Positions 21,082-34,363 of a stretch of DNA of 64,000 nucleotides are shown here, piece by piece. The stretch comes from Halorussus sp. MSC15.2 (GTDB lineage Archaea > Halobacteriota > Halobacteria > Halobacteriales > Haladaptataceae). Both the position numbers and the translations under genes were made by a program. Numbering within the stretch: the first letter of the stretch is position 1; each line of letters begins with the position of its first letter. The notes under the pieces are model-generated. The model was not told the origin of the DNA and did no database searches. It saw nothing but the letters and a program-made list of their open reading frames with translations. The stretch is taken from the NCBI RefSeq assembly GCF_010747475.1, contig NZ_VSLZ01000004.1:1-64000 (forward strand). Direction: 5' to 3'.

Positions 21082-21141
21082 CGTTTACGTTAACGAAAAC
21101 GCATCCGAAAACGGTACTGGATACGCAATCGTAAATGTTGT
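21082..21141. repeat. 12-bp array b upstream of parA, five units
   Basis: Units CGTTTACGTTAA, CGAAAACGCATC, CGAAAACGGTAC, TGGATACGCAAT and CGTAAATGTTGT run in unbroken 12-base phase between the DUF456 start and the parA promoter. They share the CGNAAACG octamer (or complement) with the parA operator. Confidence 0.78.
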
Positions 21142-21167
21142 TTCCTACACACGTGTCTGACGAAGGA

Positions 21168-21201
21168 TTAAATAGGTCGTTTGCGTTTGCGCAAACGCAA
21201 A
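21168..21201 (+). promoter_or_regulatory. parA promoter with 22-bp perfect palindromic operator
   Basis: A TTAAATA box (21168-21174) is followed by a perfect palindrome at 21180-21201 whose left half is TTTGCGTTTGC. It consists of two overlapping inverted octamers, CGTTTGCG (21184-21191) and CGCAAACG (21190-21197). The palindrome ends two bases before the parA ATG and would cover the transcription start, the position of a repressor site. Confidence 0.75.
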
Positions 21202-21203
21202 TT

Positions 21204-22094
21204 ATGCCTCGCTCCATCCGAGCCTGTACCTTCCTCGACAAGGGCGGTACGGGCAAGACGACCACCGCGGCCCACCTCGGCGTGGCGCTCGCCGAACAGG
21301 GCAACGACGTGTTGCTCATCGACCTCGCGGGCAAGCAGGGTGACCTCGTGAAGCACTTCGGACGTTGGGAGACCGTCGAGCGCCAGATAGCCGAGGACGA
21401 CGACTGGCCCAACATCTCCACGGTCTTCCAAGACCAGTGGAGCGCCATCGCCGAGAAGTTGGGCGACGCCGCGGTCGAAGGACTCATCCTCGACACCGAC
21501 GAGGGCGTGGACCTGATTCCCGCCCACCCCGGTCTTGACAGCCTCGACGCCGAACTGGGTAACATCGACGACGCCCACGACCGCTACTCGCGACTCGATA
21601 CGTTCTTGGACGAGTACATCGAACCGCTGGGCTACGACGCCATCCTCATCGACCTGCCGGGTCTGACGAACAACGTCAGTTACAACGGTCTCTGGGCCGC
21701 CCGGAACGTCATCGCGCCGGTCGAGATGGGACCGTTCGAGTCCGAACAGGCCGAGGCGCTCCGGGCCGACCTCGACAAAATCGGCGCGAACTTCGGCGTG
21801 GACGTGCGACTCGCCATGGTCCTCCCGAACAAGGTCGACACCCGGACGAAACTCGCCGAGGAGTACCTCGACGCCTTCGAGGAGGCGTACCCCGACGCGT
21901 TCGTGTCGTCGCACGTCCCGGTGAGCCAAGACATCCGGAACGCCGCCGAGTCGGGCCGGACCGCGTTCGCGCTCGAAGAGCCATCGACGACTGCCGCGCG
22001 CGCACGCGAAGCATTTCTCGAAACTGCCGCGACACTGACCGAGCGGTTGGAGCGCGCCGAACCGGCAGCGACCACGGGAGGTGAGACGGCGTGA
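21204..22094 (+). CDS. parA: ParA-family partition-type ATPase
   Basis: A 296-residue deviant-Walker ATPase. Walker A is KGGTGKTT at residues 13-20, the A' strand reads DVLLIDLAGKQGDL, and Walker B is YDAILIDLPGLTNNVSY. This is the ParA/Soj/MinD superfamily; such ATPases bind DNA or membrane when ATP-bound and move cargo or plasmids. The ATG at 21204 is chosen because it follows the TATA box and palindrome by the expected leaderless distance. The stop overlaps the next gene by four bases (GTGA). CGNAAACG arrays lie on both sides. No ParB homologue is visible, so the small downstream gene is the likely partner. Confidence 0.92.
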   Translation: MPRSIRACTFLDKGGTGKTTTAAHLGVALAEQGNDVLLIDLAGKQGDLVKHFGRWETVERQIAEDDDWPNISTVFQDQWSAIAEKLGDAAVEGLILDTDEGVDLIPAHPGLDSLDAELGNIDDAHDRYSRLDTFLDEYIEPLGYDAILIDLPGLTNNVSYNGLWAARNVIAPVEMGPFESEQAEALRADLDKIGANFGVDVRLAMVLPNKVDTRTKLAEEYLDAFEEAYPDAFVSSHVPVSQDIRNAAESGRTAFALEEPSTTAARAREAFLETAATLTERLERAEPAATTGGETA

Positions 22095-22483
22095 GCGACC
22101 CCGACCTCGAAGAACTCCGCCAGCAGACCCAACGCACCGACCGTCTGGCCGAACCGGCGAGCAGGGAGGACGAGAGCGACGATTTGGTGGAGGACCTCGT
22201 CGACGCGCTCGCGGCCATCGACTCGGGCGAGCAGGCCAAGACGTTCGCGGCCCGCGACGAGTCGGTGACCGCGCTCCTGACGACGCTGGCAGAACGCGAA
22301 CAGGACCTCGAAGCGGTCGGGACTTCGCTTCAGAGCGCGCTGGGACGGGACGTGGACCGCGACGCGCTCGACCGGAGCGAGGTCGTCCGACTCGCGGTCC
22401 GTCTGGGTCTGCGGGAAGCAGCCCCGGAGTATCTGGACCTCCTCGCGGACGCGTCGGGTGAGTACGCCCGACGCAACTTCTGA
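22091..22483 (+). CDS. Small acidic ParA-partner protein (candidate centromere-binding factor)
   Basis: A 130-residue protein starting at a GTG that overlaps the parA stop by four bases, so it should be co-translated. The N-terminal third is acidic and probably disordered. The C-terminal region (LDRSEVVRLAVRLGLREAAPEY) resembles the helix 1-helix 2 part of ribbon-helix-helix DNA-binding domains. In many plasmid partition operons the gene after parA encodes the centromere binder. Two inverted blocks of CGNAAACG arrays begin 17 bases after its stop. The DNA-binding role is an inference. Confidence 0.7.
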   Translation: MSDPDLEELRQQTQRTDRLAEPASREDESDDLVEDLVDALAAIDSGEQAKTFAARDESVTALLTTLAEREQDLEAVGTSLQSALGRDVDRDALDRSEVVRLAVRLGLREAAPEYLDLLADASGEYARRNF

Positions 22484-22499
22484 CAGGCCGTATCACAGC

Positions 22500-22636
22500 C
22501 GTTTTCGAAATCGTTTTCGACTGCGTTTCCGTTGTGCGTTTACGGCCACGTTGTCGAATTCACTCGCTTTTCGTTTCCGATATCGTTCGCGGTATCGTTT
22601 CCGTTATCGTTTACGAAAATGAAATCGTTTCCACGG
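22500..22636. repeat. 12-bp array c-left: CGTTTNCG-oriented units after the parA operon
   Basis: Two runs: CGTTTTCGAAAT, CGTTTTCGACTG, a 13-base CGTTTCC unit and CGTTTACGGCCA (22500-22548); then CGTTTCCGATAT, CGTTCGCGGTAT, CGTTTCCGTTAT, an 18-base unit from 22608 and CGTTTCCACGG from 22626. All read CGTTTNCG on the plus strand. Confidence 0.78.
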
Positions 22637-22714
22637 CTGTTCACGTGTGGATTTTGATTCGATTCAGTCTCGCGACGCGCCCGCCTTCGTCTCGGCATGT
22701 GTTCCGCGCGAATA

Positions 22715-22750
22715 CGAAAACGTATACGTAAACGTCTACGCAAACGTGGT
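22715..22750. repeat. 12-bp array c-middle: CGNAAACG-oriented units
   Basis: Three exact-phase units, CGAAAACGTATA, CGTAAACGTCTA and CGCAAACGTGGT. Their orientation is opposite to the block at 22500-22636, with about 80 bases of ordinary sequence between. Confidence 0.75.
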
Positions 22751-22812
22751 TGTAGCAGATAGGTTGAGCAGTATTCGTCACCGAAGCCCACACGACTCGG
22801 TGGTACGGTGGA

Positions 22813-22862
22813 CGGAAACGTATCCGTAAACGAAATCGCAAACGATTTCAAAAACGTAAGCG
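22813..22862. repeat. 12-bp array c-right: CGNAAACG-oriented units
   Basis: Four units, CGGAAACGTATC, CGTAAACGAAAT, CGCAAACGATTT and CAAAAACGTAAG, then a further CG. It ends about 75 bases before the next gene and completes the 457-base intergenic region after the parA operon. Confidence 0.75.
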
Positions 22863-22938
22863 TCCACTACCTGCGAACGATATTGGATTCTGACACGCGA
22901 CGTAGAGATTGATAAGTGATGACGATGTACTATCGCCC

Positions 22939-23328
22939 GTGACCGACGACGCGCCGACGTTCGACATCCCGCGCCGCCCCGAGCGCGTCTACCCGCGCGA
23001 CGGGGGCGTGGAGTACGAGGGGGGAACCGTCTTTCGTCTCTCGCCCGAGCCGGAGCGTCCCGAACGGGAGTTAGCCGCGCTCGTCGAGGGCGTTCTGGAC
23101 GGCGACCGCTACACCTACGGCGACTGGTTCGAACTCCCCGCGCCGGTGTATCTGGTCCACGACGAACGCCACTCTACCGCCTTCCGCATCGTGATTCGCT
23201 ACGGGAGCGTGGAGTTCCACGTCCTGCCGGAGACGGCGGAAGAGGCCCTGCGTGGGATGTACTCCCGACTCCGGGAGTTCGGCGAGTGTCGGTGGAACGT
23301 CGCTTGCGAGACGACTCGGCCGGACTGA
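22939..23328 (+). CDS. Conserved hypothetical protein
   Basis: A 129-residue acidic soluble protein starting at a GTG; a TTGATAAG element about 28 bases upstream favours this start over an in-frame TTG at 22909. It has a plausible mixed alpha/beta domain (APVYLVHDERHSTAFRIVIR, GSVEFHVLPETAEEALRGMYSRL) and no recognised motif. It lies next to the repeat region but points away from it. No function can be assigned. Confidence 0.68.
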   Translation: MTDDAPTFDIPRRPERVYPRDGGVEYEGGTVFRLSPEPERPERELAALVEGVLDGDRYTYGDWFELPAPVYLVHDERHSTAFRIVIRYGSVEFHVLPETAEEALRGMYSRLREFGECRWNVACETTRPD

Positions 23329-23459
23329 CCCCTCCGCCTTCGACTTTACCTCGAACCCGTATCTCGCGTCACGGTGGCCTCCAACTTTCGTTCTCGGACC
23401 ATCGACGGGTCCCCGCGAGCGCGGTAGCTTTTTACCGTCCCCGCGACACCGCAGACGTA

Positions 23460-24128
23460 ATGAACCTCCCCACGACCGACGACGCCGAATTGCGCACGAG
23501 CGACACCGCATCCGAGATGTGGGAGTTCGCCGAGGACGCCGACCCCGCGCAGGCCCGGCGCGCCTACCCGAGCGGGTGGCTCTGGCTGACGGGCGAAGAG
23601 TCTGTTCGGTCGCTTCTCGCGGCGTTGCTCGACGCCGACCCGGACGCCCGTTACGGCGAGGACGACCTGGCGTCGCGTTCGGACCTCTCCGAGGCGGCGG
23701 TAGCGGAAGCCATCGACGCGCTCATCTCGCTCGGCGTGCTGGTCGCCGACGACGGTGCCTACCGCGTCAACGAACACGCTATCGTCTACCACGCGGCGCG
23801 GGAACTCTCGGCCGCCGTCGAGACCACCGGCGCGCCCGACGACGAGGGCGGGTTGGCGTACCTCGCGCGACTCGAATCGGTGCGACTCATGCTCGACGCG
23901 CTGTTGGAGGCCGACCCCGACCAGTCGCTCACGCAAGAGGACGTTCACCTGCTCACGGGCGTCTCGCGCAAGCGGGTCTGGCTTCACGTCGAGAAGTTAG
24001 TGGACCTCGGCGTCCTCGAAGAGTCCGGCGACGAGTACGTCGTCGGACCCGATTGCACCGTCCTCCGGTGGGTACAGTCGCTCGATGCGGCGGTCGTCGG
24101 TGCGACGCTCGCCCCGTCGCATCCCTGA
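23460..24128 (+). CDS. Double winged-helix regulator-like protein
   Basis: A 222-residue protein with two related winged-helix units: SVRSLLAALLDADPDARYGE followed by DLASRSDLSEAAVAEAIDAL (residues about 45-95), and SVRLMLDALLEADPDQSLTQ followed by DVHLLTGVSRKRVWLHVEKL (about 135-190). The two units look like an internal duplication. It resembles haloarchaeal HTH families of unknown targets. The ATG at 23460 follows a CTTTTTACC element at 23427, about 30 bases upstream. Confidence 0.75.
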   Translation: MNLPTTDDAELRTSDTASEMWEFAEDADPAQARRAYPSGWLWLTGEESVRSLLAALLDADPDARYGEDDLASRSDLSEAAVAEAIDALISLGVLVADDGAYRVNEHAIVYHAARELSAAVETTGAPDDEGGLAYLARLESVRLMLDALLEADPDQSLTQEDVHLLTGVSRKRVWLHVEKLVDLGVLEESGDEYVVGPDCTVLRWVQSLDAAVVGATLAPSHP

Positions 24129-24206
24129 ATTCGCGGTCGTTCCTTCCGGTCGCTTCGATTTCGGAATCTCGTCTCTCCGTGACTCGTAGGTACGGTTCGA
24201 ACGACG

Positions 24207-24500
24207 TTACGCGGTCGCTTCCTGTGGCAGGTCCACGTACTGGGACTCCCACTCGCGGCGGGCCTCGATTTCTCGGTCGCCGCGGCGGGTCAGGGTGTAG
24301 TAGTTCGTCCGACGGTCGCGCTGGCCCTTCTCGACGAACCCTTTGTCCACGAGGGTATCGAGGTTCGGGTAGAGTCGGCCGTGGTGAATCTCTTTCTCGT
24401 AGTACGATTCGAGTTCGTCCTTGATAGCGAGACCGTGCGGTTCGTCTAACCCCGCGATGACGTATAGCAAGTCTCTCTGAAAGCCTGTCAGGTCGTACAT
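24207..24500 (-). CDS. PadR-family transcriptional regulator
   Basis: A 97-residue PadR-type winged helix: LTGFQRDLLYVIAGLDEPHG, then LAIKDELESYYEKEIHHGRL, YPNLDTLVDKGFVEKG and the wing RRTNYYTLTRRG. PadR proteins normally repress stress or efflux genes and bind DNA as dimers; this one is the short haloarchaeal form without a long C-terminal helix. It stands alone on the minus strand upstream of no obvious target. Confidence 0.93.
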   Translation of the reverse strand: MYDLTGFQRDLLYVIAGLDEPHGLAIKDELESYYEKEIHHGRLYPNLDTLVDKGFVEKGQRDRRTNYYTLTRRGDREIEARREWESQYVDLPQEATA

Positions 24501-24602
24501 CGTCTCCCCTTTTAGATTGGAACCTACCTATCGGGAAAAGGATGATGGCCGTTTCGAGAACCGAGACCTGTCACGGTCAGAAGATAGCGAAATCGACCGA
24601 CG

Positions 24603-25337
24603 CTACGGGTCTGCCCCCGTTAAGCATTCCATACTCACTGATTCGACCCACATGTCGCCCACCGCGGAGTCGTCGGCCCGACTCGCACGAGGGACGCCGA
24701 CTATCCGCACTTCGTCGCCCTCCGACACTGTGCCCGTCAGGTCGTGTTCGAGCAGGACCGGGAGTCCGTCGCCGCCCGCCGGGTCCCGCACCGTCACCTC
24801 TTGGGCATCGACGTACTCGCTCGCCTCCGGCGCGAACGAGAGGTATCCGACCGAACTGCACCGCGGACACTTGGCGTTCGTCCGGAACTCCCGGCCCGAC
24901 TGGGCGACGTGGCGCGTGACCGCCTCGCACTTCGCGCACCGGAACCCCGCACGGACCACCTTCGGCCGGAGCGGCCCTGTCTCGGCGACGACGCCCCGCA
25001 TCGTGTGGAGGCTGTTGAGGTGGGTCGCCCGGAGGTCCGAGAGCGCCACCTCGCTCTCCGCGGGGAGGTCGCTGATTCGGAGGTAGACGTCGCGGAGGTC
25101 GCGGTCGGACTCCCCGGAGAGGAACCGCGAGAGCGCGGCCTTCCCCGCTCGCAACGCTTCGTCGGGGTTCGAGAGCAGCGGCCGCACGAATCGGTAGTCG
25201 TGACCGAACCGGTCGCAACTGACCGACAGCGCGCGCTCGTCGGGGTAGTTCTCGACGAACCGGCGCACCGACTCGTCGCGGTCGCGGTAGACGTACTCGC
25301 ACCACTTCTCGGTCAGGTCGCCGTTTCGCACTGCCAT
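24603..25337 (-). CDS. Stand-alone MCM N-terminal (OB-fold/zinc) domain protein lacking the helicase
   Basis: A 244-residue protein matching the non-catalytic half of the MCM replicative helicase. It has the helical A-domain (FVRPLLSNPDEALRAGKAAL), the OB-fold (VYLRISDLP, LNSLHTMRGVVAETGPLRPK), the zinc site Cys134/Cys137 (CAKC) with Cys157/Cys160 (CPRC), and the later FAPEASEYVDAQEVTVRDP and LVLEHDL-like VLLEHDLTGTVSEGDEVRIVG segments. It ends before any Walker motif, so it cannot hydrolyse ATP. It could modulate MCM loading or act as a single-strand binder. It lies between CGNAAACG array regions. The family match is made by eye. Confidence 0.75.
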   Translation of the reverse strand: MAVRNGDLTEKWCEYVYRDRDESVRRFVENYPDERALSVSCDRFGHDYRFVRPLLSNPDEALRAGKAALSRFLSGESDRDLRDVYLRISDLPAESEVALSDLRATHLNSLHTMRGVVAETGPLRPKVVRAGFRCAKCEAVTRHVAQSGREFRTNAKCPRCSSVGYLSFAPEASEYVDAQEVTVRDPAGGDGLPVLLEHDLTGTVSEGDEVRIVGVPRASRADDSAVGDMWVESVSMECLTGADP

Positions 25338-25816
25338 GGACGACCGTTCCGGCGCGTCGGTCTTTGTTACACACCTCCTGCCGGTCGCTCGTCCGACTTA
25401 GCGTCGTCCTGTGGTCGCAGTGCGGTCGGGCCTCGACGGAGGCGTCATCGTCTCTAGTGCCGGTATCGCCCGCGTTCCCGGTCCGATTTCCGTCTCCGTT
25501 TTCCGTTCCGTCAGCGTCACCGATTCCGTTTTCATTATCGTTTTCGAAACCGTTTACGTAAACATTTGCGTCAGGTCCGCCGGAGTCAGTCGCGTTGTCG
25601 GACTCGAACTGGACTCGGCGGGCGTATCGACCGAGTGCATCGGTACCCCCTCTGAATATGGACACGCCGTACCGAGTCAATCTGCACTGTGTCGTCCCGG
25701 CCGCAAACGCATACCTGTCGCCCAAACTTCGACGAACGCACCACCTTCGAATCGTCTCCCATTCACACCCGCAACTGCACCCGCAATTTATGACCTCTCG
25801 GGTGTCATTACCTATC
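25338..25816. other. Divergent intergenic region with CG-phased array
   Basis: Separates the MCM-like gene and the FAD/Fe-S dehydrogenase. It contains the phased array at 25485-25570 and, at 25786-25791, a TTTATG box 27-31 bases before the dehydrogenase ATG. Open frames crossing it are low-complexity products of the repeats and are not taken as genes. Confidence 0.55.
25485..25570. repeat. Array d: CG dinucleotide every 6 bases, with 12-bp CGTTTNCG units
   Basis: CG occurs at 25491, 25497, 25509, 25515, 25521, 25527, 25539, 25545, 25551, 25557 and 25569, all in the same 6-base phase. The clearest 12-bp units are CGTTTTCGAAAC (25539) and CGTTTACGTAAA (25551). It reveals that the basic period of the family is six. 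Confidence 0.7.
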
Positions 25817-28795
25817 ATGTCGTCTCCGCCCGCCGACGGTCTCGACGTCGAGAGCTACCGCGAATCGGTCGGTATCGACGCGCCCGACGACCCCGCTCAC
25901 ACCGAACTGGCGGCCGCCCTCCGCCGGGCGTGCGAGGGCGAGGTCCGGTTCGACGAGTACACTCAGATTCTGTACGCGACCGACGGGAGCATCTACCAAG
26001 CCCGGCCCGCGGGCGTCGTCTTCCCGACCGACGCCGCCGACGCGCAGACCGCGATGGCGGTGGCGGCCGACCACGACGCGCCGGTTCTGCCCCGCGGCGC
26101 TGGGTCGTCGCTGGCCGGGCAGGCCGTCGGTCCCGGGTGCGTCGTCGTCGACTTTACGCGGCACATGGACGCGATTCTGGACGTGGACCCCGAGACCGAG
26201 CGTGCGACGGTCCAACCCGGCGTCGTGCAGGACGACCTCGATTCGCGTCTCGCGGAGGACGGCCTGAAGTTCGCGCCCGACCCGGCGTCGTCGAACCGCG
26301 CGACGGTCGGCGGAGGTATCGGAAACAACTCGACGGGCGCACACTCGGTCCGGTACGGCATCACCGACGCCTACGTCGAGGCGGTCGAAGCGGTCCTCGC
26401 CGACGGAAGCCGGATTCGCGCCCGAGAGGTCGAATTCGACGGTCCCGAGTACGAGCGTATCGTTTCGAAGGACGACCGCGAGGCCCACATTTACCGCACG
26501 GTCCGCGCCATCGTGGAGGGGAACGCCGAGGAGATAGCCGAGCGATACCCGGACCTCAAGCGGTCGGTGTCTGGCTACAACCTCCACGAGTGCGTTTACG
26601 AAAACGCAAACGGAAACGAATGCGTAAATCTCGCCAAGCTGTTCGTCGGCGCGGAGGGGACGCTGGGCGTCGTGACCGAGGCGACCCTCTCGCTGGTCTC
26701 CAAACCCGACGAGACGGCGGTGGCGCTCTACTGCTTCTCGGACCTGCTGTCGGCGATGGAGGCGGTCCCCGTCGCGCTCGACTACGACCCGAGTGCGGTC
26801 GAACTCATGGACGACGAGGTGTTCCGACTGGCCCGGGAGTCCGCAGAGTACGCGGAGTACGCCGACCCGATTCCCGACGACGCCGCGGCCGCGCTGATGC
26901 TGGAGTTCGACTCGGAGGTCCACGACGACCTGACCGACGCCGTCGCCGAGACCAACGCGGAGTTCGTCCGCGATGGCGAGGCCTTCGACGTGCTGGAGGC
27001 TTACGACGACGAGTCGCAGGCGAAACTGTGGAAACTCCGGAAGGCCGCCATCCCCCTGCTGATGAGCATGGAGGGCGACCCCAAGCCCTACCCATTCATC
27101 GAGGACGCCTCGGTGCCGCCCGCGGAACTGGCCGAGTACGTGCAGGGGTTCGAGGGCGTCTTGGAGGCCCACGACACCTCGGCGGCCTACTTCGCCCACG
27201 CCGGAAGCGGCACCCTCCACGTTCGACCGGTGCTGAACCTCAAGTCCGAGGCGGACGTCGAGAAGATGCAGTCCATCGCCGAGGACGTGACCTCGCTCGT
27301 TCTCGACCACCACGGGTCGTTCTCCGGTGAGCACGGCGACGGACTGGCCCGCACCCAGTTCAATCCCAAGATGTACGGCCCGGAGCTATGGGACGCCTTC
27401 AAGCAACTCAAGACCGCCTTCGACCCAGACTGGCGGATGAACCCCGGGAAGGTGGTCTTCGAGGAGGAGTCACCCACCGACATGCGCGAGAACCTGCGGT
27501 ACGGCCCGGCCTACTCGTCGCTCGAACCCGCGACCGAGCAGGATTTCTCCAAGGAGGGCGGCTTCTCGCACCTCGTGGAACTCTGCAACGGGTGCGGAAC
27601 GTGCCGACAGACCGACTCCGACGTGATGTGTCCCTCCTACCGCGGCATGGACGAGGAGGTGGCGACCACTCGCGGCCGGGCCAACATGCTCCGGGCCGCC
27701 ATCTCCGGCGAACTCCCGCCTGAAGAGATGCACACCGAACGATTCCAGAAGGAGGTGCTGGACCTCTGTCTCGGCTGTAAGGGCTGCCAGAGCGACTGCC
27801 CGACCGGCGTGGACCTCGCCAAACTCAAAGCCGAGGTCAAACACCGATACCACGAGGAGGAGGGCGCGAGCCTGCGCGAGCGACTGTTCGCCGAGGCGGA
27901 CCGACTGGCCGCGGTCGGGTCCGCGCTCGCGCCGGTGTCGAACTGGCTGGCCGACCTGCCGGGGACTGGTCTCGTCGCCGAGAAGGCGCTGGGCGTCGCC
28001 CGCGAGCGCGACGTCCCGGCGTTCGCCGACCAGTCGTTCGAGGCGTGGTTCGAGTCCCGCGGCGGTCCCCGAGTCCCTGAGTCCCGCGCCGACGACAGGG
28101 TCCTGCTCGTGCCGGACACCTACACCAACTACGTCTATCCCCGGACCGGCCGGGCCGCGGTGCAGGTCCTCGAAGCCGCGGGCGTCCACGTTCGAGTTCC
28201 CGACGCCGACCCGAGCGGCCGCCCTGCCTACTCCGAGGGATTCCTCGACGTGGCGCGCGAACGCGCCGAGTCGAACGTCGTCCGCTTCGCCCCGCGGGTC
28301 CGCGATGGCTGGTCGGTCGTCTACCCCGAACCCTCCGACGCAGCGATGGTGCAGGACGAGTATCTGGACCTGCTCCCCGACGCCGAGGGGGCCGCGGCGC
28401 TCGCCGAGAACGCCTACGGCGTCTGCGAGTACCTCGACCTGACCGGCCGCGACGAGGAAATCGAGTTCGACGCCCCTGCAGACCGACTCGCCTACCACGG
28501 CCACTGCAACCAGAAGGCGCTTGGCACCGCCGACCACGCCGCCGCGGTCCTCGACCGGGCGGGCTACGACGTGGCCGCGCTCGACTCGGGCTGTTGCGGT
28601 ATGGCCGGGAGCTTCGGCTACCACACCGAACACTACGACCTCTCGCAGGCCATCGCCGACGACCTGCGCGACCGGATTTCCGAGGCCGACGCCGACGAGG
28701 TGGTCGCACCGGGCGCGTCCTGCCGGTCACAACTCGAAACCCAGCGTCCGACCCACCCCGTCGAGAAGTTGGCCGCGGCGCTCCCGTGGCGCTGA
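25817..28795 (+). CDS. FAD-linked oxidase fused to Fe-S/CCG domain (D-lactate/glycolate dehydrogenase-like)
   Basis: A 992-residue fusion. Residues about 30-530 are a GlcD-type FAD-binding oxidase (PRGAGSSLAGQAVG, ASSNRATVGGGIGNNSTGAH, LFVGAEGTLGVVTEA, HHGSFSGEHGDGLAR). Residues about 590-680 carry two ferredoxin-like clusters (CNGCGTC and CLGCKGCQSDCPTG). The C-terminus has a CCG-type domain (GHCNQKALG, SGCCGMAGSFGYH). Such enzymes oxidise D-2-hydroxyacids at the membrane and pass electrons to quinone; the exact substrate is unknown. A TTTATG box fits the ATG at 25817. Residues about 259-271 (VYENANGNECVN) come from an in-frame 12-bp repeat array. Confidence 0.9.
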   Translation: MSSPPADGLDVESYRESVGIDAPDDPAHTELAAALRRACEGEVRFDEYTQILYATDGSIYQARPAGVVFPTDAADAQTAMAVAADHDAPVLPRGAGSSLAGQAVGPGCVVVDFTRHMDAILDVDPETERATVQPGVVQDDLDSRLAEDGLKFAPDPASSNRATVGGGIGNNSTGAHSVRYGITDAYVEAVEAVLADGSRIRAREVEFDGPEYERIVSKDDREAHIYRTVRAIVEGNAEEIAERYPDLKRSVSGYNLHECVYENANGNECVNLAKLFVGAEGTLGVVTEATLSLVSKPDETAVALYCFSDLLSAMEAVPVALDYDPSAVELMDDEVFRLARESAEYAEYADPIPDDAAAALMLEFDSEVHDDLTDAVAETNAEFVRDGEAFDVLEAYDDESQAKLWKLRKAAIPLLMSMEGDPKPYPFIEDASVPPAELAEYVQGFEGVLEAHDTSAAYFAHAGSGTLHVRPVLNLKSEADVEKMQSIAEDVTSLVLDHHGSFSGEHGDGLARTQFNPKMYGPELWDAFKQLKTAFDPDWRMNPGKVVFEEESPTDMRENLRYGPAYSSLEPATEQDFSKEGGFSHLVELCNGCGTCRQTDSDVMCPSYRGMDEEVATTRGRANMLRAAISGELPPEEMHTERFQKEVLDLCLGCKGCQSDCPTGVDLAKLKAEVKHRYHEEEGASLRERLFAEADRLAAVGSALAPVSNWLADLPGTGLVAEKALGVARERDVPAFADQSFEAWFESRGGPRVPESRADDRVLLVPDTYTNYVYPRTGRAAVQVLEAAGVHVRVPDADPSGRPAYSEGFLDVARERAESNVVRFAPRVRDGWSVVYPEPSDAAMVQDEYLDLLPDAEGAAALAENAYGVCEYLDLTGRDEEIEFDAPADRLAYHGHCNQKALGTADHAAAVLDRAGYDVAALDSGCCGMAGSFGYHTEHYDLSQAIADDLRDRISEADADEVVAPGASCRSQLETQRPTHPVEKLAAALPWR
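26593..26628. repeat. Array e: three 12-bp units inside the FAD/Fe-S dehydrogenase gene
   Basis: CGTTTACGAAAA, CGCAAACGGAAA and CGAATGCGTAAA in exact phase. Because 12 is a multiple of three the array keeps the frame and adds an Asn/Glu/Val-rich loop just before the conserved NLAKLFVGAEGTLG motif. Confidence 0.75.
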
Positions 28796-34315: not shown

Positions 34316-34363
34316 CGTTTTCGTATCCGCAAACGTTTGCGTTTTCGAAATCGAAAACAGTCT
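34316..34363. repeat. 12-bp array f, four units
   Basis: CGTTTTCGTATC, CGCAAACGTTTG, CGTTTTCGAAAT and CGAAAACAGTCT in exact 12-base phase, alternating in octamer orientation, between the ends of the convergent Nudix and HTTM genes. This is the array farthest from parA. Confidence 0.75.

Follow-up and report, generated by a model that had tools for sequence, protein, structure and literature searches.

A candidate partition cassette bordered by repeat arrays in Halorussus sp. MSC15.2 and its relatives across haloarchaea

The stretch of DNA analysed in this study (the window) covers positions 1 to 64,000 of a 405-kb contig from Halorussus sp. MSC15.2, the genome of which amounts to 4.41 Mb in 25 contigs, and it harbors a two-gene operon with short repeated words on both of its sides (Table 1). 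The ATPase encoded by the first gene carries its Walker A motif at residues 13-19 of 296 and has no N-terminal (HTH) extension; it matched the Pfam model AAA_31 with an E value of 5.5e-18 and Soj/ParA chains of the PDB with E values as low as 4e-15, and it scored 63.5 bits against the NCBIfam model ParA_partition, which is under the 180-bit cut-off of that model. The start of the partner gene overlaps the parA stop by four bases, and the four-base coupling proposed in the sequence-only reading can therefore be read directly in the sequence. The partner is annotated as a hypothetical protein in relatives, and no significant match to it was found in Pfam, NCBIfam or the PDB. A ParB-CTPase system (type Ia or chromosomal ParABS) was considered and rejected, as the partner has only 130 residues and no ParB match in Pfam or NCBIfam. 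About 2 kb downstream of the arrays, positions 24603-25337 encode a 244-residue protein with an MCM OB domain, in which Pfam detected no other MCM parts; the gene at the matching position in relatives is annotated as hypothetical.

Table 1. Features of the operon and of the repeated words in the window
Feature	Position	Strand	Basis or remark
Distal upstream array, 3 exact units (one CGTTTNCG, two CGNAAACG)	21082..21113	.	exact scan
GTCTGACG box directly upstream of the TATA-like element	21155..21162	+	sequence
TATA-like element ATTAAATA, inferred promoter	21167..21174	+	sequence
Putative proximal operator CGTTTGCGTTTGCGCAAACGCAAA between TATA-like element and parA ATG	21178..21201	.	sequence, exact scan
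ParA-family ATPase, 296 aa	21204..22094	+	Pfam AAA_31, Soj/ParA structure matches
Partner, putative centromere-binding protein, 130 aa	22091..22483	+	GTG start; residues 51/53/55 = T/A/R
Array block 1, 7 exact CGTTTNCG units and degenerate copies	22500..22636	-	exact scans
Array block 2, 3 exact CGNAAACG units, 12-bp steps	22715..22746	+	exact scans
Array block 3, 3 exact CGNAAACG units, 12-bp steps, and degenerate copies	22813..22862	+	exact scans
Outlying dimer	25539..25558	-	dimer scan
Outlying four-unit cluster within FAD-oxidase ORF, in the segment that separates the two main Pfam domains	26593..26618	.	unit and dimer scans
Outlying cluster, 4 units	34316..34347	.	exact scan

Behind the operon, seven exact CGTTTNCG units face six exact CGNAAACG units, and exact scans also recovered copies upstream, so that both the inverted blocks and the bracketing of the operon by arrays, as first proposed, hold. 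The exact units of block 1 start at 22500, 22512, 22524, 22537, 22572, 22596 and 22608 (steps of 12, 12, 13, 35, 24 and 12), the last of them ending at 22615, with degenerate copies between them and out to 22636. Those of block 2 start at 22715, 22727 and 22739, and those of block 3 at 22813, 22825 and 22837, ending at 22844 and followed by degenerate copies to about 22862; the distal upstream units start at 21082, 21094 and 21106. The single unit occurs 44 times in the window against 19.0 +/- 4.1 in shuffled sequences, none of 100 shuffles being as high, and the dimer (two units with a 4-bp gap) occurs 10 times against none in 100 shuffles. The whole 4.41-Mb genome has 13 dimers, ten of which fall within 21094-26618 and the other three at 353 kb on this contig, and a letter-reversed control of the dimer pattern had no match in it. 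Dimers at a distance from the partner comparable to that of the cluster at 26593-26618 were seen in several genomes of the genus.

Relatives of the partner were recovered in one search from 88 of the 391 genomes of the class, and a profile search of the phylum gave at least 6 of 294 genomes, all of one order, which is a lower bound because its first pass scores few candidates and missed partners known from the class search. A total of 128 loci (L014-L141) were collected, of which 91 are non-redundant and 64 are representatives below 85% identity; an adjacent parA-partner pair was extracted at 117 of the 128, and the other 11 were dropped before the counts. Alignment A3 holds all of the 64 except L049, L098, L099, L111 and L124. 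A tblastn search of a plasmid collection with the partner returned 20 records, including six Halorussus plasmids of 303-557 kb. These six records are complete megaplasmids, which answers for close relatives the earlier question of chromosome or megaplasmid, and the nearest of the Halorussus plasmids is 97.7% identical, with the gene order around the operon seen in the window. Since Halorussus relatives carry the cassette on megaplasmids, we infer that the contig of the window is likewise a plasmid. Cassettes were also observed on contigs of about 3-4 Mb (G298:C1, G132:C1, G376:C1, G175:C1, G255:C1, G114:C1 and G068:C1), where they probably lie in chromosomes, either as integrated plasmids or as chromosomal par loci, and such cassettes count against the megaplasmid par-locus reading proposed below. 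Among 18 genomes of the genus, the dimer was present in 15 and the partner in 14; the three genomes without a dimer all lack the partner, the single discordant genome is 62% complete, and the letter-reversed control was found in none of the 18. Of the 140 dimers in the 14 partner-bearing genomes, 103 are no more than 5 kb from the partner and 110 no more than 10 kb. The facing layout, with CGTTTNCG nearest the gene and CGNAAACG farther out, recurs in most of the 16 genus loci that were printed, some of which are copies of one another, and L016, L018 and L019 deviate from it.

Upstream of parA, three overlapping exact units start at 21178, 21184 and 21190 (span 21178-21197) close to the ATG, and positions 21180-21201 form a perfect 22-bp palindrome, so iterated sites lie over the par promoter. 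Each of the 16 printed genus loci has units near -20 and -14 relative to the parA ATG and a cluster of the distal type 75-129 nt before parA, and most of them have a unit near -26 as well. As the units next to the ATG fall in the gap from the TATA-like element to the start codon of parA, the partner may repress its own operon. The sequence GTCTG[AG] occurs in the 110 nt that precede parA in 41 of the 64 representatives, against 14 of 64 coding controls; a GTCTGACG-like box immediately ahead of the TATA element is conserved across different array words and is possibly a promoter element or the site of another regulator.

We propose, with a probability of about 75%, that the arrays and the operon together constitute a partition (par) locus carried by a haloarchaeal megaplasmid, in which the partner binds the arrays both as centromere and as an operator over the parA promoter. 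A partner that uses the arrays only to regulate the operon and its neighbours, in a pair which positions some other cargo and has no centromere in the arrays, would account for the finding that in most representatives units lie over the parA promoter, in the interval from TATA to ATG, and arrays on both flanks could be regulatory. This role is nonetheless improbable, because the units of the window are mostly located downstream of the operon, clusters occur as far as 12 kb away, one of them inside a coding gene, and 132 of the 140 dimers in the partner-bearing genomes of the genus are on the contig of the partner. Much less probable still is that the arrays are replication iterons, that is, a megaplasmid origin to which an initiator binds, the par genes being adjacent by chance: the arrays do look iteron-like, and par and ori often adjoin each other, but the sole Orc1/Cdc6-type match on the contig (372159-373254 of 405 kb, read in two frames) is about 55 kb off if the contig is circular, and the word tracks the par partner over replicons of many kinds.

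Repeats in the flanks of the operons of the wider collection peak at lags of 6, of 12/24/36 and of 13/26/39, while the parA and partner coding controls show peaks at multiples of three only and none at 6 or 13. Five main words, assigned by eye, were recognized, namely A CGNAAACG, B CGNATACG, C CTATAG, D GTATC and F GTTAC, and rarer words occur in one or two cases each (CGATACCG, CCATATATGG, ATACAG, CTGTTT and ATTTCGA). The labels were set from k-mer lists, and their final list followed a printout that also displayed the protein segment; L120 was labelled D with no GTATC in its counted flank. The unit counts by regular expression are mechanical, and they gave at least two units on both flanks in 47 of the 52 operons with words A, B, C, D and F (out of the 64 representatives), against 0 of 52 coding controls. 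The step class, assignable in all but 12 of the 64, is 13 in 15 of 15 rows of the D/F/E/J clade, and outside that clade 33 rows have step 12 and four have step 13 (L024, L109, L110 and L125). The new site grammar first claimed for the window is borne out and proves wider than was claimed, with at least eight words on one layout. Neutral microsatellite-like tracts multiplying through slippage, with which the six-base periodicity and the differing unit numbers of relatives would agree, are hardly credible, as the core is kept while the free base and the spacer vary between units, the words differ among cassettes yet fit the partner, the flank placement is absent from the controls (47/52 against 0/52), and three complete-looking genus genomes without the partner have no dimer.

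Phage records and viral contigs yielded no relative (12 pattern stretches occur in the viral contigs). A B-type cassette (L069) lies on a 959-kb scaffold labelled Candidatus Nanosalinarum, which indicates either transfer into a nanohaloarchaeon or a mis-binned contig, and a 34-kb contig from Halobacterium salinarum DSM 3754, an organism well suited to laboratory work, carries a C-type partner (L070/L077). The idea that the words set plasmid compatibility gained no support: 3 of 15 co-resident pairs, typed by eye from G024, G179, G188, G235, G236, G330, G361, G364 and G376 with fragmentary or unfetched matches left untyped, share a word (two C/C pairs and one H/H pair) against about 2.3 expected by hand from the word frequencies in the 64 representatives, so no exclusion was apparent.

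With regard to the fold of the partner, its prediction as suggested earlier was carried out, and an AlphaFold2 monomer was obtained (pLDDT 83, pTM 0.64) without a convincing structural match. It has helices at residues 4-15, 23-45, 57-68, 70-83, 95-110 and 112-129, with neither strand nor helix at 46-56; no PDB match fell under E 2, and VIA-align against 115 chains gave Z of at most 4.0. These results speak neither for nor against the fold, since an intermolecular ribbon is invisible in a monomer. The models matched by most members were RHH_1 in Pfam (weak, 8/59, best E 0.016) and aCcr1 in NCBIfam (weak, 7/59, best E 0.0013), both of which match L034 at residues 78-107. We consider it likely that the partner is an RHH-like dimer. 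The ribbon, if there is any, would lie at residues 48-56, ahead of the C-terminal helices, with an extra helix preceding the RSExxR helix; the original proposal had a possible ribbon-helix-helix at the C-terminus.

The array word varies along with the partner across haloarchaea. Residues 51/53/55 are TAR in 12 of 12 partners with word A, [TS]SR in 8 of 8 with word B, [TV]SW or TTY in 17 of 17 with word C, NTR in 13 of 13 with word D, and NNR in 2 of 2 with word F. W or Y occupies position 55 in all 17 rows with at least two CTATAG-like units, and three additional rows with W at 55 carry other or weak words. Exceptions to the match between triplet and word are TSR with other words (L090, L129), NTR in L107, and TSW in L084, L099 and L110. 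At the centre of the unit, 78 of 96 A-type copies (residue 53 = A) carry the base A, and 53 of 56 B-type copies (residue 53 = S) carry T. Residues 51, 53 and 55 alternate with hydrophobic 52 and 54, the pattern expected of one face of a strand. The operons L098, L111 and L124 have no clear array; their partners, of 152-180 residues in total, have long acidic N-termini and S, E or D at 55, and their DNA-reading function has perhaps been lost or changed.

The words cluster on the ParA tree, where their labels take 15 changes; shuffled labels take 40.9 on average, and none of 200 shuffles came as low. On the partner tree, with the strand segment removed, the corresponding figures are 13 and 40.7. 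At 40-50% partner identity, the flank similarity is 0.53 for pairs with the same triplet (93 pairs) and 0.05 for pairs with different triplets (279 pairs); below 30% identity, the gap is small. The trees hold one or two independent pairs (starred branches), too few for a sign test. The relation between triplet and word is an association and not proof, because in a scan of 127 columns residues 51, 53 and 55 rank only 49, 15 and 11, with clade-tracking columns above them. The partner probably reads the flanking repeated words, and residues 51, 53 and 55 are the likely base readers. The one layout with differing words on related plasmids suggests a family of matched protein-centromere pairs. The fuller proposal, on which we are evenly divided, is a superfamily of haloarchaeal partition cassettes with at least eight centromere words, one fixed layout and a code at 51/53/55 in a DNA-reading strand, in which A to S at 53 would turn CGNAAACG into CGNATACG, W or Y at 55 would go with CTATAG-like words, and the 12- and 13-bp steps would mark two deep clades.

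In the par-locus reading, a partner dimer with an N-terminal ParA-contacting tail would bind the CGNAAACG arrays, stepped by 12 bp, cooperatively, and the arrays behind the operon together with those upstream would form the centromere, to be loaded onto DNA-bound ParA-ATP. An arginine-bearing N-terminal motif, whose R18 is invariant in alignment A2, is the candidate activating tail, and by analogy the partner-array complexes may stimulate nucleoid ParA-ATP and ride its gradient. The operator would consist of the units that follow the TATA-like element and precede parA. Across haloarchaea, the one cassette would have switched its word and its step, the three residues of the strand-like segment being the likely base readers.

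In the bacterial type Ib loci pB171 par2 and TP228 parFGH, a small partner gene stands behind parA and iterated sites stand at the operon, as is found here; in pB171 the sites flank the operon on both sides. The haloarchaeal cassette shares its layout with bacterial type Ib partition loci, with a ParA that has no N-terminal HTH extension and a small protein gene directly behind parA. The type Ib-like cassette of the sequence-only reading can be retained for the ParA, the small overlapping gene and the arrays on both sides, with DNA binding, the partition function and the RHH fold as inferred parts, and we regard it as a new variant of type Ib-like partition with its own site words. The partner sequence showed no detectable relation, among PDB chains, to the partners of pSM19035, pB171 or TP228. 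Closest in spirit is the delta-omega system of pSM19035 (ParA with an RHH ParB and heptad parS arrays), which, in the excerpted text of PMC9499535, shares a ParA with a small partner and contiguous short repeats, both direct and inverted, over promoters, and in which ParA activation needs at least four contiguous repeats. It differs in its gapless 7-bp WATCACW repeats, against 8-bp units with a 12- or 13-bp step and many words here, and in that the present host is archaeal.

Among archaeal systems, SegAB of Sulfolobales likewise has a ParA homologue with an overlapping small gene; according to extracts of PMC12284271 and PMC5120986, SegB is an RHH protein whose site TCTAGA-S-TCTAGA is a 6+1+6 bp palindrome, resembling the 13-bp step class of the present family, and most of its sites are inside genes. 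SegAB is, however, chromosomal with dispersed sites, in contrast to the long arrays here; the window contains no TCTAGASTCTAGA-type SegB site with up to two mismatches allowed, and no SegB-type relative of the partner was found among PDB chains at a meaningful E value. The AspA-ParB-ParA system of pNOB8 is also an archaeal plasmid partition system with a ParA, but it is tricistronic with a ParB-like protein, as extracts of PMC5120986 describe it, unlike the two genes here.

The arrays were not described in the titles or the beginnings of abstracts of the open-access literature searched, and a 2016 review, in the part available, counted the nature of archaeal centromeres, chromosomal and plasmid-borne alike, among the open questions (PMC5120986). 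Dozens of haloarchaeal replicons would gain explicit candidate centromeres from the cassettes, which would also provide a protein-DNA code that can be tested and may open the way to stable haloarchaeal vectors and to sequence-based plasmid typing.
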